From an uncultured bacterium (GTDB lineage Bacteria; Bacillota; Clostridia; Oscillospirales; Oscillospiraceae), in the NCBI GenBank assembly GCA_947176765.1, contig CAMWRX010000011.1, positions 1 to 52,238 of the forward strand: a stretch of DNA of 52,238 nt, in the 5' to 3' direction. Each line of letters opens with the position of its first letter. Within the stretch, counting starts at the first letter, position 1. Positions 34,258-38,576 of the stretch are shown piece by piece. The notes beneath the pieces were generated by a model. It did no database searches. It saw nothing but the letters and a program-made list of their open reading frames with translations, and was not told where the DNA came from. The translations under genes and the position numbers were made by a program.

Positions 34258-35541
34258 TTACTTTACTGCCGCGAAGCCCTTCTCCAAATCGGCAATGATG
34301 TCGTCGATGTGCTCCGTGCCGATGGACAGCCGGATGGTATTGGGCTTGATGCCCTGATCGGCCAGTTCCTCGGGGGTGAGCTGGGAGTGGGTGGTGGTGG
34401 CCGGGTGGATGACCAGAGATTTCACGTCCGCCACGTTGGCCAGCAGGGAGAAGATCTCCAGACTGTCGATGAACTTGTGGGCCTCCTCCTGGCCGCCCTT
34501 AATCTCAAAGGTGAAGATGGATGCGCCGCCGTTGGGGAAGTACTTCTCATACAGGGCGTGGTCGGGGTGGTCGGGCAGAGAGGGGTGGTTGACCTTCTCC
34601 ACCTGGGGGTGCTTTGCCAGGAACTCCACCACCTTCTTGGTGTTCTCGGCGTGGCGGTCCAGGCGGAGGGAAAGGGTCTCCACCCCCTGGAGCAGCAGGA
34701 ACGCGTTGAACGGGGAAAGGGTCGCGCCCATATCCCGCAGCAGGATGGCCCGGATATAGGTGACAAAGGCGGCGGGGCCGGCGGCGTCCACGAAGGACAC
34801 GCCGTGGTAGCTGGGGTTGGCCTCGGCAATGGGTGCGTACTTGCCGGACGCTTTCCAGTCAAACTTGCCGCTGTCCACGACGATGCCGCCCAGGGTGGTG
34901 CCGTGTCCGCCGATGAACTTGGTGGCGGAGTGGACCACAATGTCCGCGCCGTGTTCGATGGGCCGGATCAGGTAGGGGGTGCCGAAGGTGTTGTCGATGA
35001 CCAGAGGCAGGCCGTGGCTGTGGGCGATGGCCGCGATGGCGTCAATGTCGGGGATGTCGGAGTTGGGGTTGCCCAGGGTCTCCAGATAGACGGCCTTGGT
35101 GTTGGGCCGGATGGCGGCGGTGACCGCGTCCAGATCGTGGGCGTCCACAAAGGTGGTGGAGACGCCGAACTGGCTCAGGGTGTGGGCCAGCAGGTTGTAG
35201 CTGCCGCCGTAAATGGTCTTTTGGGCCACGATGTGATCCCCGGCCTGGGCCAGGGCCTGGATGGTGTAGGTGATAGCCGCCGCGCCGGAGGCGGTGGCCA
35301 GGGCCGCCACGCCGCCCTCCAGGGCCGCGATGCGCTTTTCCAGCACGTCCTGGGTGGAGTTGGTCAGCCGCCCGTAGATATTGCCGGCATCCGCCAGGCC
35401 GAACCGGGCAGCGGCATGGGCGGAGTTGCGGAACACATAGCTGGTGGTCTGGTAGATAGGGACGGCCCGGGCGTCGGTGGCGGGATCGGGCTGCTCTTGG
35501 CCCACATGGAGCTGAAGGGTTTCAAATTTATAATTGTTCAT
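34258..35541 (-). CDS. metY: O-acetylhomoserine sulfhydrylase (aminocarboxypropyltransferase)
   Basis: A 427-aa pyridoxal-phosphate enzyme that makes homocysteine from O-acetylhomoserine and sulfide (it may also make cysteine). The family start is FETLQLHVGQEQPDPATDAR. AALATASGAAAITYTI, the Asp of LVIDNTFGTPYLIRPIEHGA, and the PLP-binding lysine in VVHSATKFIGGHGTTLGG at about 203-220 are present. Length is normal. I start at ATG 35541; a longer frame from 35598 falls inside the terminator of the leader. It is preceded by a 270-base leader with a consensus promoter, an AACC-N13-GGTT operator and an attenuator-like structure. Confidence 0.95.
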   Translation of the reverse strand: MNNYKFETLQLHVGQEQPDPATDARAVPIYQTTSYVFRNSAHAAARFGLADAGNIYGRLTNSTQDVLEKRIAALEGGVAALATASGAAAITYTIQALAQAGDHIVAQKTIYGGSYNLLAHTLSQFGVSTTFVDAHDLDAVTAAIRPNTKAVYLETLGNPNSDIPDIDAIAAIAHSHGLPLVIDNTFGTPYLIRPIEHGADIVVHSATKFIGGHGTTLGGIVVDSGKFDWKASGKYAPIAEANPSYHGVSFVDAAGPAAFVTYIRAILLRDMGATLSPFNAFLLLQGVETLSLRLDRHAENTKKVVEFLAKHPQVEKVNHPSLPDHPDHALYEKYFPNGGASIFTFEIKGGQEEAHKFIDSLEIFSLLANVADVKSLVIHPATTTHSQLTPEELADQGIKPNTIRLSIGTEHIDDIIADLEKGFAAVK

Positions 35542-35580: not shown

Positions 35581-35613
35581 CAAAAAAGCCCGGGGCAACG
35601 AAATTGCTCCCGG
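35581..35613 (-). terminator. Attenuator terminator in the metY leader
   Basis: On the minus strand CCGGGAGCAA pairs with TTGCCCCGGG around TTTCG and is followed by CTTTTTTG. It ends 40 bases before the metY start, so full-length metY RNA requires it to be avoided. Confidence 0.85.
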
Positions 35614-35704
35614 ACTGCGTATGGCATACCGGCTCCCGCCTTATAGAATAGCGGGAAAAACCGCAGGCGCGCCAAAACGCCCGGCCACAGGGGCAGTCCG
35701 GGAG
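35607..35704 (-). promoter_or_regulatory. Probable antiterminator pairing in the metY leader
   Basis: GCAGTCCGGGAG (35693-35704) and CTCCCGGACTGC (35607-35618) on the plus strand are perfect 12-base complements. The second arm overlaps the ascending stem of the terminator at 35581-35613, so the two structures exclude each other. Each arm is next to the same GTATGGCAT direct repeat, suggesting an old duplication. Confidence 0.75.
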
Positions 35705-35763
35705 TATGGCATTCGTCCACAGCGGAAATTGCTCCGCAAAAGCCTCAGAAACTGATTCCTCAT
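35641..35763 (-). CDS. Possible 40-aa metY leader peptide
   Basis: An ATG at 35763 with GAAGGTGG upstream opens a 40-codon frame ending at TAA. It begins MRNQFLRLLRSNFRCGRMPY and has seven Arg and one Cys (codon 15, about 35719-35721). The Cys codon lies about 15 bases ahead of the antiterminator arm at 35693-35704, so ribosome stalling there could expose the arm. This fits cysteine-sensing attenuation, but codon use and translation are unproved. A GTG start at 35773 in another frame is an alternative. Confidence 0.45.
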   Translation of the reverse strand: MRNQFLRLLRSNFRCGRMPYSRTAPVAGRFGAPAVFPAIL

Positions 35764-35791
35764 TCCGGCCCACCTTCTTTTTTGAATGATT

Positions 35792-35812
35792 AACCTATTA
35801 CAATACTCGGTT
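35792..35812. promoter_or_regulatory. Rrf2-type operator at the metY start site
   Basis: AACC-N13-GGTT with AT-rich centre, just downstream of the metY -10. The same layout occurs at 38009-38029 (cysK) and 38102-38122 (rrf2 gene). Confidence 0.75.
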
Positions 35813-35819
35813 GATTGGA

Positions 35820-35848
35820 ATTATAGCGTCTGCCGTAGAATTTGTCAA
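35820..35848 (-). promoter_or_regulatory. Consensus metY promoter
   Basis: On the minus strand TTGACA (35848-35843) and TATAAT (35825-35820) are both perfect and 17 bases apart. Transcription should start near 35813, at the operator. Confidence 0.88.
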
Positions 35849-35945: not shown

Positions 35946-36185
35946 TCAAATGCAATGAAGGAAAGAGTACTTGAAGGTGAAGAACGCCGCCGCCCGGTAC
36001 ACACCGTCATAGTCCTCCAGGGAGGGGACGTAGTAGTATTCCGTCAGCGCGCTCCGGCACTGTTCACTGAGACCGTCCCAGGGGCAGTCGCCGATGCCCA
36101 GGACATTGGCGCCCAGCCGCTTCAGCCGGTCGCAGAAATTGTAAAACTGCTCCGGAAAATGGGGCGAGAGAAAGATCACATTCAT
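35946..36185 (-). pseudogene. N-terminal fragment of an ATP-grasp family protein
   Basis: The 79-codon frame begins MNVIFLSPHFPEQFYNFCDR and continues LGANVLGIGDCPWDGLSEQC to EYYYVPSLEDYDGVYRAAAF. This is the pre-ATP-grasp N-terminal domain of a carboxylate-amine ligase family common in gut Firmicutes. After about residue 70 it runs into FLHCI and stops; the ATP-binding domain (some 300 residues) is missing. It follows the esterase gene by 12 bases on the same strand. The cut is close to 35950-35970, near the orphan promoter. Confidence 0.82.
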
Positions 36186-37057: not shown

Positions 37058-37993
37058 TCAATCGGCAAACAACGGAGTGGAGAGGTAACGGTCGCCGGTG
37101 TCGGGCAGGAGGGCCACGATGGTCTTGCCCTTGTTCTCAGGGCGCTTGGCCAGCTGGACGGCGGCCCACACCGCCGCGCCGGAGGAGATGCCCACCAGCA
37201 CACCCTCGGAGCGGCCCACCAGCTTGCCGGTGGCAAAGGCGTCCTCGTTCTCCACGGTGATGATCTCGTCGTAAATGGCGGTGTTAAGCACGTCGGGTAC
37301 AAAGCCCGCGCCGATGCCCTGGATCTTGTGAGCCCCGGCGGTCCCTTTGCTCAGCACGGGGGAGGCGGAGGGCTCCACCGCCACCACCTTCACGTCCGGG
37401 TTCTGGCTTTTCAGGTACTCGCCCACGCCGGTGACGGTGCCGCCGGTGCCCACGCCGGCTACGAAGATGTCCACCTGGCCGTCGGTGTCGTTCCAGATCT
37501 CCGGACCGGTGGTAGCCTTGTGAACAGCCGGGTTGGCGGGGTTGACGAACTGGCCGGGGATGAAGCTGTCCGGGATCTCCTTTGCCAGCTCGTCGGCCTT
37601 GGCAATTGCCCCCTTCATGCCTTTGGCACCCTCGGTGATCACCAGTTCGGCCCCGTAGGCTTTCATCAGCTGTCGGCGCTCCACGCTCATGGTCTCGGGC
37701 ATGACGATGACGATCCGGTAGCCCTTGGCAGCGGCCACGGAGGCCAGGCCGATGCCCGTGTTGCCGGAGGTAGGTTCGATGATGACCGAACCGGGTTTCA
37801 GCAGCCCCTTGGCCTCGGCGTCGTCGATCATGGCCTTGGCGATGCGGTCTTTTACGCTGCCGGCGGGGTTGAAGTACTCCAGCTTGGCCAGGACGCGGGC
37901 CTCAAGCTTCTCGGCCTGTTCAATATGGGTGAGCTCCAGCAGGGGGGTATGGCCGATCAGCTGGTCGGCGGATGTATAAATAGCGCTCATCAT
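37058..37993 (-). CDS. cysK: Cysteine synthase A (O-acetylserine sulfhydrylase)
   Basis: A 311-aa PLP enzyme that makes cysteine from O-acetylserine and sulfide. The N-terminus has [14 protein letters not shown] and the PLP lysine in [13 protein letters not shown] (about residue 47). [21 protein letters not shown] (about 69-89) binds substrate and cofactor, and [16 protein letters not shown] contacts phosphate. [12 protein letters not shown] also matches CysK. Length is normal. The start ATG has AAGGAGG. Its promoter carries an Rrf2-type operator and is divergent from the rrf2 gene, pointing to cysteine-dependent control like that of CymR. Confidence 0.97.
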
Positions 37994-38088: not shown

Positions 38089-38117
38089 TTGATTTCCTAT
38101 TAACCGTGTTGTATAAT
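38089..38117 (+). promoter_or_regulatory. Promoter of the Rrf2 regulator gene
   Basis: TTGATT (38089-38094) and TATAAT (38112-38117) with a 17-base spacer, divergent from the cysK promoter. Confidence 0.82.
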
Positions 38118-38122
38118 AGGTT
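38102..38122. promoter_or_regulatory. Rrf2-type operator overlapping the regulator's own -10
   Basis: AACC-N13-GGTT covers the -10 of the rrf2 gene, indicating autoregulation. It matches the metY operator at 17 of 21 positions. Confidence 0.78.
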
Positions 38123-38144
38123 GAAGAAAAGGAGGGGTCATCCC

Positions 38145-38576
38145 ATGCTGATTTCAACAAAAGGACGATACGCGCTGCGGGTCATGATCGATCTGGCGGA
38201 ACATCAAGGGGATGGCTTCATCCCTCTCAAGGTGATCGCCGAGCGCCAGGAAATCTCGGAAAAGTATCTGGAGAGCATCATCAAGCTGCTGGTCAAGGCC
38301 CGGATGCTCAGCGGCGTGCGCGGCAAAGGCGGCGGCTATCAGCTGACCCGCTCGCCGGAGCAATACACTGCGGGAGAAGTCCTGCGGCTGACAGAGGAAT
38401 CCTTGGCTCCCGTATCATGTCTGGAACAGGACGCTGAGGCTTGCCACAGGGCGGCCTTCTGTCGGACGCTTCCGTTGTGGAAGGGTCTGAGCGGTGTGAT
38501 CAATGACTATCTTGATCACATTACCATTGAGGATCTGATGCAGCGGGGGGACGCCGGAAATGATTATGTGATTTGA
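38145..38576 (+). CDS. Rrf2-family regulator, CymR/IscR-like
   Basis: A 143-aa winged-helix regulator. It opens MLISTKGRYALRVMIDLAEH, and the recognition region AERQEISEKYLESIIKLLVK is followed by the wing RGKGGGYQLTRSPEQYTAGE. The C-terminal part has three Cys in SCLEQDAEACHRAAFC (spacing 7 and 5), similar in position to the iron-sulfur ligands of IscR though not identical. CymR proteins lacking a cluster respond to cysteine synthase; those with one sense iron-sulfur status. Beside cysK and near metY, control of sulfur metabolism is the best inference. The start ATG follows AAAGGAGG. Confidence 0.93.
   Translation: MLISTKGRYALRVMIDLAEHQGDGFIPLKVIAERQEISEKYLESIIKLLVKARMLSGVRGKGGGYQLTRSPEQYTAGEVLRLTEESLAPVSCLEQDAEACHRAAFCRTLPLWKGLSGVINDYLDHITIEDLMQRGDAGNDYVI

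Follow-up and report, generated by a model that had tools for sequence, protein, structure and literature searches.

Transcription of metY in the window, the whole 52,238-nucleotide stretch of DNA analysed here, is probably decided by translation of a short leader peptide, one of a family of leaders found in Clostridia before methionine and sulfur genes. By computation we defined this family, its conserved peptide, a CGA codon fixed at one site, covariation between two RNA arms (A and C) and a modelled switch point at which the fold changes with the position of the ribosome.

The leader before metY

Judged by sequence, the leader frame upstream of metY (Table 1) is translatable with a ribosome-binding site; a Shine-Dalgarno-like run, AAGGTGG, was read upstream of it, and its sole Cys codon is codon 15 (TGT). 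The metY product matches NCBIfam TIGR01326 with 633.9 bits (cut-off 495.1). The preliminary description had placed a strong terminator just ahead of metY, a perfect 12-base complement upstream of it, and a 40-codon frame whose only Cys codon lies just before the rival arm. All three were borne out: a hairpin and T-run at 35616-35582 were read from the sequence and recovered again by helix search, the complement (arms A and C) is an exact inverted repeat, and the frame and its Cys codon are as described. A consensus terminator scan, covering loops of 3-8 only, listed one other site and not this terminator. The leader strand folds at -101.8 kcal/mol (z -4.17), with 0 of 200 shuffles equally stable, and the leader peptide together with the arms recurs in other genomes beyond chance.

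Table 1. Features of the metY leader locus, in positions of the window
Feature	Position	Strand	Remark
Leader peptide ORF, 40 codons + TAA	35641..35763	(-)	P0001, MRNQFLRLLRSNFRCGRMPYSRTAPVAGRFGAPAVFPAIL
Sigma-70-type promoter, TTGACA-17-TATAAT	35820..35848	(-)	12/12 consensus bases
Conserved core R-S-N-F-R-C-G-R-M, leader codons 10-18	35710..35736	(-)	family comparison
Cys codon 15 (TGT)	35719..35721	(-)	in the model, a ribosome waiting there would leave arm A free
Arg codon 17 (CGA), proposed brake	35713..35715	(-)	CGA in 225/225 kept leaders
Codon 18 (ATG), directly after CGA	35710..35712	(-)	
Arm A, CTCCCGGACTGC	35693..35704	(-)	covaries with arm C
Arm B, CCGGG, possible local partner of arm A	35680..35684	(-)	
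Arm C, GCAGTCCGGGAG	35607..35618	(-)	pairs with A (antiterminator) or D (terminator)
Arm D, CCCGGGCT	35582..35594	(-)	read from sequence and ribosome-mask folding
T-run of terminator	35587-35582	(-)	read from sequence
metY, O-acetylhomoserine sulfhydrylase	34258..35541	(-)	start taken as ATG 35541

An Rfam search of the whole window at the gathering score gave 0 matches, and a relaxed threshold gave four sub-threshold matches, none of them in the metY leader; the leaders of 18 other loci of the family likewise had no Rfam match. This agrees with the earlier statement that hallmarks of a SAM-box or T-box are lacking, and no named family was found. Pfam and NCBIfam profiles run on four leader peptides returned nothing above threshold and one sub-threshold match (DUF3368, E 0.23). 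Core peptide strings (RSNFRCGRM and shorter) were absent from the literature searched, in which subscription journals lay mostly beyond reach, and none of the titles or abstract openings found there describes an R-x-N-F-R-x-G-R-M leader.

Other control elements were also found. Of 224 leaders, 57 have in the 130 nt before them a box of the form CCTA-N8..11-TAGG, which we take to resemble those of CymR-type Rrf2 regulators; mononucleotide shuffles give an expectation of 0.7. Near metY, an Rrf2 regulator gene (38106-38576; Pfam Rrf2, 123 bits) adjoins a divergent cysK (37058-37993). A SAM-I riboswitch precedes metK in the window's genome (L326, contig C40); the same genome therefore has a riboswitch for SAM synthesis and a peptide leader for metY. 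A 79-codon ORF (35946-36185) adjoins the metY promoter; by eye it resembles the truncated start of a larger protein, and a Pfam search at E 0.01 gave no match to it.

A leader family with a conserved peptide and a fixed CGA codon

A protein search of 400 genomes of the window's family gave matches at many loci, and the core was common to 27 of the 30 returned. Scanning genome contigs with the pattern RxNFRCGRM located 79 loci, whose titles name Oscillospiraceae, Gemmiger, Faecalibacterium, Agathobaculum and Lachnospiraceae; the carriers include Flavonifractor plautii ATCC 29863 (L048) and Oscillibacter valericigenes (L036, L039), and further carriers are Gemmiger formicilis ATCC 27749 (L092) and Evtepia gabavorous (L104). 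Profile searches matched 87/394 genomes of the order, 34/247 of one sister family and 43/391 of the class (E limit 0.05 for each), and 14/155 of another family (E limit 0.01). The core motif was present in 84/86, 31/33, 32/37 and 11/14 of the respective loci fetched; most order-profile matches above E 0.005 lie outside the fetched loci, as do most weak matches of the same-family protein search. A narrower profile matched 3 of 398 genomes in a phylum sample, one being the window's own genome; the two remaining matches were rejected.

From 288 loci scanned we kept 225 distinct leaders in Clostridia. The motif filter, R-x-[NG]-[FYWC]-[RKC]-x-[GQ]-R with any codons, fixes R10 and R17 as residues and leaves their codons free; 18 of the 288 loci failed this or the start filter, among them L111 (AGA before ATG) and L228 (CGC), both without CGA, L229 (no Arg at the place of CGA) and L202 (His at position 10), which has CGA. 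One genome (G160) holds three leader copies (L009, L230 and L231), with L230 before metY and no downstream gene assigned to the other two.

The family core is R-x-N-F-R-x-G-R-M. Position 12 is Asn in 223/225 leaders and position 13 aromatic in 224/225, so residues are conserved before a fixed site throughout the 225, a conservation partly imposed by the motif filter. Given that the codons of R10, N12, F13, R14 and G16 vary synonymously across the 225 leaders while the residues stay, selection acts on the peptide. Codon 17 departs from this pattern and is CGA in every kept leader. CGA encodes R10 in only 13/225 and R14 in 36/225 and makes up 5.1% of 1353 Arg codons in the downstream ORFs. Other Arg codons would have been detectable by the residue pattern, because AGA occurs at R10 and R14 among the matches.

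The tRNA-Arg genes of the window's genome, which is 96% complete, have anticodons ACG, CCG, TCT and CCT and none has TCG; CGA is therefore probably read only via I34 wobble. In most bacteria inosine tRNA decodes CGU, CGC and CGA, according to the text of PMC3711424 available to us, and the accessible part of PMC4046918 reports that in Salmonella the same tRNAs read CGA more slowly than CGU and CGC. A slow codon kept at a single site would point to control of ribosome speed. The complement of CGAATG, CATTCG, was not enriched upstream (2/225, expected 4.6) or downstream (3/224, expected 5.0) of the leaders. The G-U variant CATTTG occurs downstream of 15/224 against 5.7 expected, too few loci to account for a CGA fixed in all. 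With the complements tried showing no enrichment around most leaders, we found no conserved helix that would explain the fixed CGA. An RNA hairpin over the core, drawn by eye as AUU-UCCG-nnn-CGGA, was rejected, being broken by AGA or AGG at codon 14 in 60/225 leaders.

Targets were taken as ORFs starting within 420 nt, assigned by best match among 16 reference proteins, and 215/225 leaders have such a downstream gene; the other 10 include four contig ends. The targets (n=225) comprise metY (161), metN (13), two metQ types (21), M20 amidohydrolase (3), sulfate-binding protein (3), SDF symporter (2), sulfonate-type binding proteins (4) and family 3 binding proteins (4), with YeiH-like, gamma-synthase-like, nitrogenase-like and UroD-like proteins once each. 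The MetN reference (L066) gave its best NCBIfam match below the cut-off (362.7 vs 499.7), and not all of the targets are established sulfur genes. At two loci (L198, L232) the leader is followed by a protein of ~50-60 residues (QALTxxQI...GSxTLxFQDGIL.QI) that resembles YezD/DUF2292, and then by further genes.

Codon 18, directly after CGA, is ATG in 214 of the 225 leaders, TGT in eight, and ATT, ATA and ACG in one each. Three TGT leaders precede sulfate-binding proteins, two of them by profile (L240, 469 bits; L241, 472 bits; cut-off 288) and L246 by comparison with L241. A fourth, L295, counted among the 161 metY targets, precedes an ORF that joins the start of a sulfate-binding protein to the end of metY and is apparently a deletion fusion. 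L193 (PF00375, 250 bits) and L217 precede SDF-family symporters, whose substrate is not assigned; the remaining two precede an amidohydrolase (L040) and, as a counterexample, metY (L313). Sulfate-binding proteins or SDF symporters thus follow 5/8 TGT leaders against 0/214 ATG leaders (Fisher p 1.3e-8, relatedness uncorrected, the TGT loci being few and partly related). Two genomes (G1221, G1318) carry ATG- and TGT-type leaders before different genes. At L040:473-763 the two types stand in tandem, a Met-type leader and terminator followed by a CGA-TGT leader and then the M20 amidohydrolase gene. These data agree with a role of the codon after CGA as the sensor next to the proposed brake, in class II at any rate; in the class I model, waiting at that codon would give OFF.

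By our own rule, 63 leaders fall in class I (arms and terminator) and 125 in class II, with 37 unclassed. Class II frames end at or shortly past the core and have no strong terminator; at the class II metY loci (n=92) the median distance from CGA to the gene start is ~84 nt. Class II tails contain Cys in 69/72 cases, and Cys accounts for 37% of their 318 residues. The 53 leaders that end right after codon 18 do so with TGA (43) or TAA (9, four of them Cys-type), one being cut off by its contig. In Met-type leaders the stop directly after GRM is TGA in 42, TAA in 5 and TAG in 0, a bias that may have arisen because these stops descend from TGT or TGC codons.

Codon 15 is variable (Phe 93, Cys 92, Asn 29, Tyr 6, others 5; n=225), and 45/225 leaders have no Cys at all. 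In class I it is Cys in 61/63, many of them from the scan whose pattern required Cys, the exceptions with Phe being L027 and L161. Among the later loci Cys15 was found in 11/12 terminator leaders against 13/143 others (Fisher p 1.3e-9, kinship uncorrected), or in 9/10 once L230 and L231, retrieved with a Cys-containing query, are left out. The window leader itself holds one Cys codon, not several control codons for a regulated amino acid. The preliminary description drew attention to the Cys codon just ahead of the rival arm, and conservation of the frame and of this codon was the proposed check. The frame is conserved, and the Cys is conserved in terminator-bearing leaders (61/63), although it finds no support as a rule for the family. 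The fixed CGA, the conserved core and the presence of the leader before many genes had gone unnoticed there.

Covariation of the arms and the modelled switch point

Counted from the first base of CGA, arm A of class I leaders mostly starts ~11 nt on and arm C ~85-105 nt on; their terminators were located independently of arm A. The terminator and antiterminator are mutually exclusive, with support from A:C covariation. In a permutation test on 45 leaders, the leaders' own A:C helices averaged 24.4 and the re-dealt ones 20.3 (0/2000 as high), and the own helix exceeded the median of the re-dealt ones in 35/45; the 3' part of arm A alone gave the same result with C (0/2000). Pairing of A with B, an arm found in the same place in many relatives, was not significant in this test (516/2000).

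For folding, the 72 loci with an independent terminator, minus eight without a fitting A:C, were thinned to 41 leaders, and 34 of these plus the window form a 35-row alignment (A6), L073, L106 and four others (format) having been dropped. RNAalifold recovered A:C only, as nine pairs, four of them with double changes. Pair counting gave 88.8% paired cells against 80.7 in shuffles, 45 double-changed cells against 20.3, and a covariation score of 0.296 against 0.166 (0/500 for each). Two weaker measures, pairs with a double change (6 vs 4.4; 18/500 shuffles) and further pair types (68/500 shuffles), gave less separation, and the signal was lost on sliding by 1 to 3 columns. Neither permutations nor shuffles keep the phylogeny. 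The covariation among homologous leaders that had been proposed as a check was thus found, in the antiterminator.

We then folded the 41 leaders while masking the RNA up to a ribosome edge that was advanced stepwise, taking the ribosome footprint as 15 nt from the P-site codon and a terminator probability above 0.5 as favoured; the calculation is one of equilibrium and ignores kinetics and the coupling of transcription to translation. In this model the terminator is favoured in 4/41 leaders at edge +6, where the ribosome waits at Cys15 (that is, not favoured in 37), in 4/41 at +9, 11/41 at +12, 33/41 at +13, 38/41 at +15 (CGA in the P-site) and 41/41 at +18. The fold therefore flips, in the model, no more than about one codon from the step that brings CGA into the P-site. 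The window leader is predicted to flip one codon before the family, between +9 and +12 and with CGA still in the A-site (terminator probability 0.03 at +9, 0.91 at +12, 0.99 at +15). Naked RNA favours the modelled terminator in 11/41 leaders, and a ribosome at the stop codon does so in 15/41.

The position of the flip suggests a brake at CGA as the OFF state and waiting at Cys15 as the ON state. Given that a ribosome at the stop codon favours the terminator in only 15/41, OFF would need a lasting brake. Together with the A:C covariation, this modelled switch supports the logic of ribosome-mediated attenuation first put forward for the metY leader.

Possible mechanisms and their relation to known systems

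From these results we infer ribosome braking, its signal and the direction of the switch in the cell. The reading that we prefer, and to which we give an even chance, is an attenuator that is governed by ribosome position and carries its own brake at CGA-AUG, and in which an earlier stall under Cys shortage would turn the gene on. A ribosome translating the leader would be slowed or arrested at R-x-N-F-R-x-G-R(CGA)|Met, both by its nascent chain and by the poorly decoded CGA. At this position its leading edge would, in the folding model, lie over the 5' part of arm A; arm C would then pair with D, forming the terminator and leaving metY off. A ribosome held before the brake, above all at Cys15 when charged tRNA-Cys is scarce, would leave arm A free to pair with C, so that metY would be transcribed. 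Charged tRNA-Cys, charged tRNA-Met or a metabolite might act as the signal. This reading covers class I and leaves the 125 class II leaders, which by our rule have no terminator, outside; such relatives keep the core, with Met (rarely Cys) behind CGA, and then either stop at once or continue into a Cys-rich tail. Against it, the metN and metQ targets fit a Cys signal poorly and two terminator leaders have Phe15.

Several of the same observations could be accounted for by an effector-induced arrest peptide, which would stop the ribosome at CGA-AUG only in the presence of Met, SAM or Cys and so turn the gene off; without the effector the ribosome would move on and the gene would be on. The conserved peptide with its fixed CGA codon suits such a peptide, as do the modelled preference for the terminator with a ribosome at CGA (38/41) or AUG (41/41) and not at the stop codon (26/41), the 45 leaders without Cys, and the tendency of the residue after CGA to follow the pathway. 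However, it leaves the association of Cys15 with terminators and the 37% Cys of the class II tails unexplained, no effector is known, and the route to lower expression in class II is not evident; we consider it rather unlikely. We hold it less probable still that the codon after CGA is itself the hungry codon, scarce Met-tRNA (or its Cys counterpart) holding the ribosome there and turning the gene on. It draws on the split of codon 18 into ATG (214) and TGT (8), on the restriction of sulfate-binding and SDF targets to TGT leaders (5/8 vs 0/214), and on the two genomes that hold both kinds before different genes and the tandem at L040. It was demoted because ribosome-mask folding gave the wrong sign in the terminator class, where the terminator is favoured in 38/41 once CGA occupies the P-site, the opposite of what starvation should do; moreover, a TGT leader (L313) precedes metY, single ATA, ACG and ATT variants exist, and the TGT loci are few and partly related.

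If the leader were a ligand-binding structured RNA with an incidental ORF, its stable fold (z -4.17) and the base-level invariance of CGAATG in the 35-row alignment would follow, yet core residues stay while codons vary synonymously, both the start codon and a purine-rich stretch upstream of it persist in the listed loci, class II leaders end shortly past the core and have no arms, and Rfam matched neither the window leader nor the 18 others; we give this very little credence. A peptide acting in trans as a small functional protein seems equally improbable. It would agree with the conserved peptide and with class II loci having no visible cis element, but in 215/225 cases the gene behind the leader matches one of the 16 reference proteins, the class I arms keep a nearly fixed distance from the core, and a fixed synonymous codon is not expected of it.

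Beyond the preferred reading of a brake and terminator in class I, we tentatively suggest, at somewhat less than an even chance, that R-x-N-F-R-x-G-R(CGA) is a portable ribosome-braking module, in which a nascent chain and an inosine-read codon would together hold the ribosome at a single spot and an exchangeable codon beside it would set the signal. That codon would be Met in leaders of methionine genes, Cys in those of sulfate uptake genes, or else Cys15, ahead of the brake, and the module would be used by Clostridia with and without the terminator switch, in tandem in at least one locus.

In mycobacteria, poly-Cys leader ORFs precede sulfur genes. The leaders described here resemble them in having Cys codons before sulfur genes and Cys-rich class II tails, and differ in that the window leader contains a single Cys, is preceded by a Shine-Dalgarno-like run and carries the R-x-N-F-R-x-G-R core. 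In other Firmicutes methionine genes are under the control of SAM riboswitches and T-boxes; unlike these, neither the metY leader nor the 18 others has an Rfam match. TnaC, which ends at UGA as many of the short leaders here also do, arrests with Trp, and plant CGS1, which controls methionine synthesis, arrests with SAM. As in TnaC (PMC8429421, in the portion available) and plant CGS1/MTO1, conserved residues lie just ahead of a defined site. In contrast to both, the leaders here have a single synonymous codon fixed, those of class I go on to a terminator switch, and the arrest is putative. The short leader ORF, the exclusive terminator and antiterminator, and the decision by ribosome position are shared with his/trp-type attenuators, as these are described in the available text of PMC2965389. 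Unlike those, the present leader has one control codon in place of a run, a conserved peptide and a fixed CGA, and OFF would come from the proposed brake inside the ORF, not from a ribosome at the stop codon.

The same 2010 paper, in the text available, considered that, with the exception of ermC, leader-peptide systems had been shown only in Proteobacteria and Actinobacteria, and itself described one for His in Bacilli (PMC2965389). If the proposed mechanism is true, this sulfur and methionine leader family of Clostridia shows a single codon serving as a sensor. The family offers a directly testable case of codon-dependent braking by a nascent chain, and named gut strains carry the leader, including Flavonifractor plautii ATCC 29863 and Gemmiger formicilis ATCC 27749.
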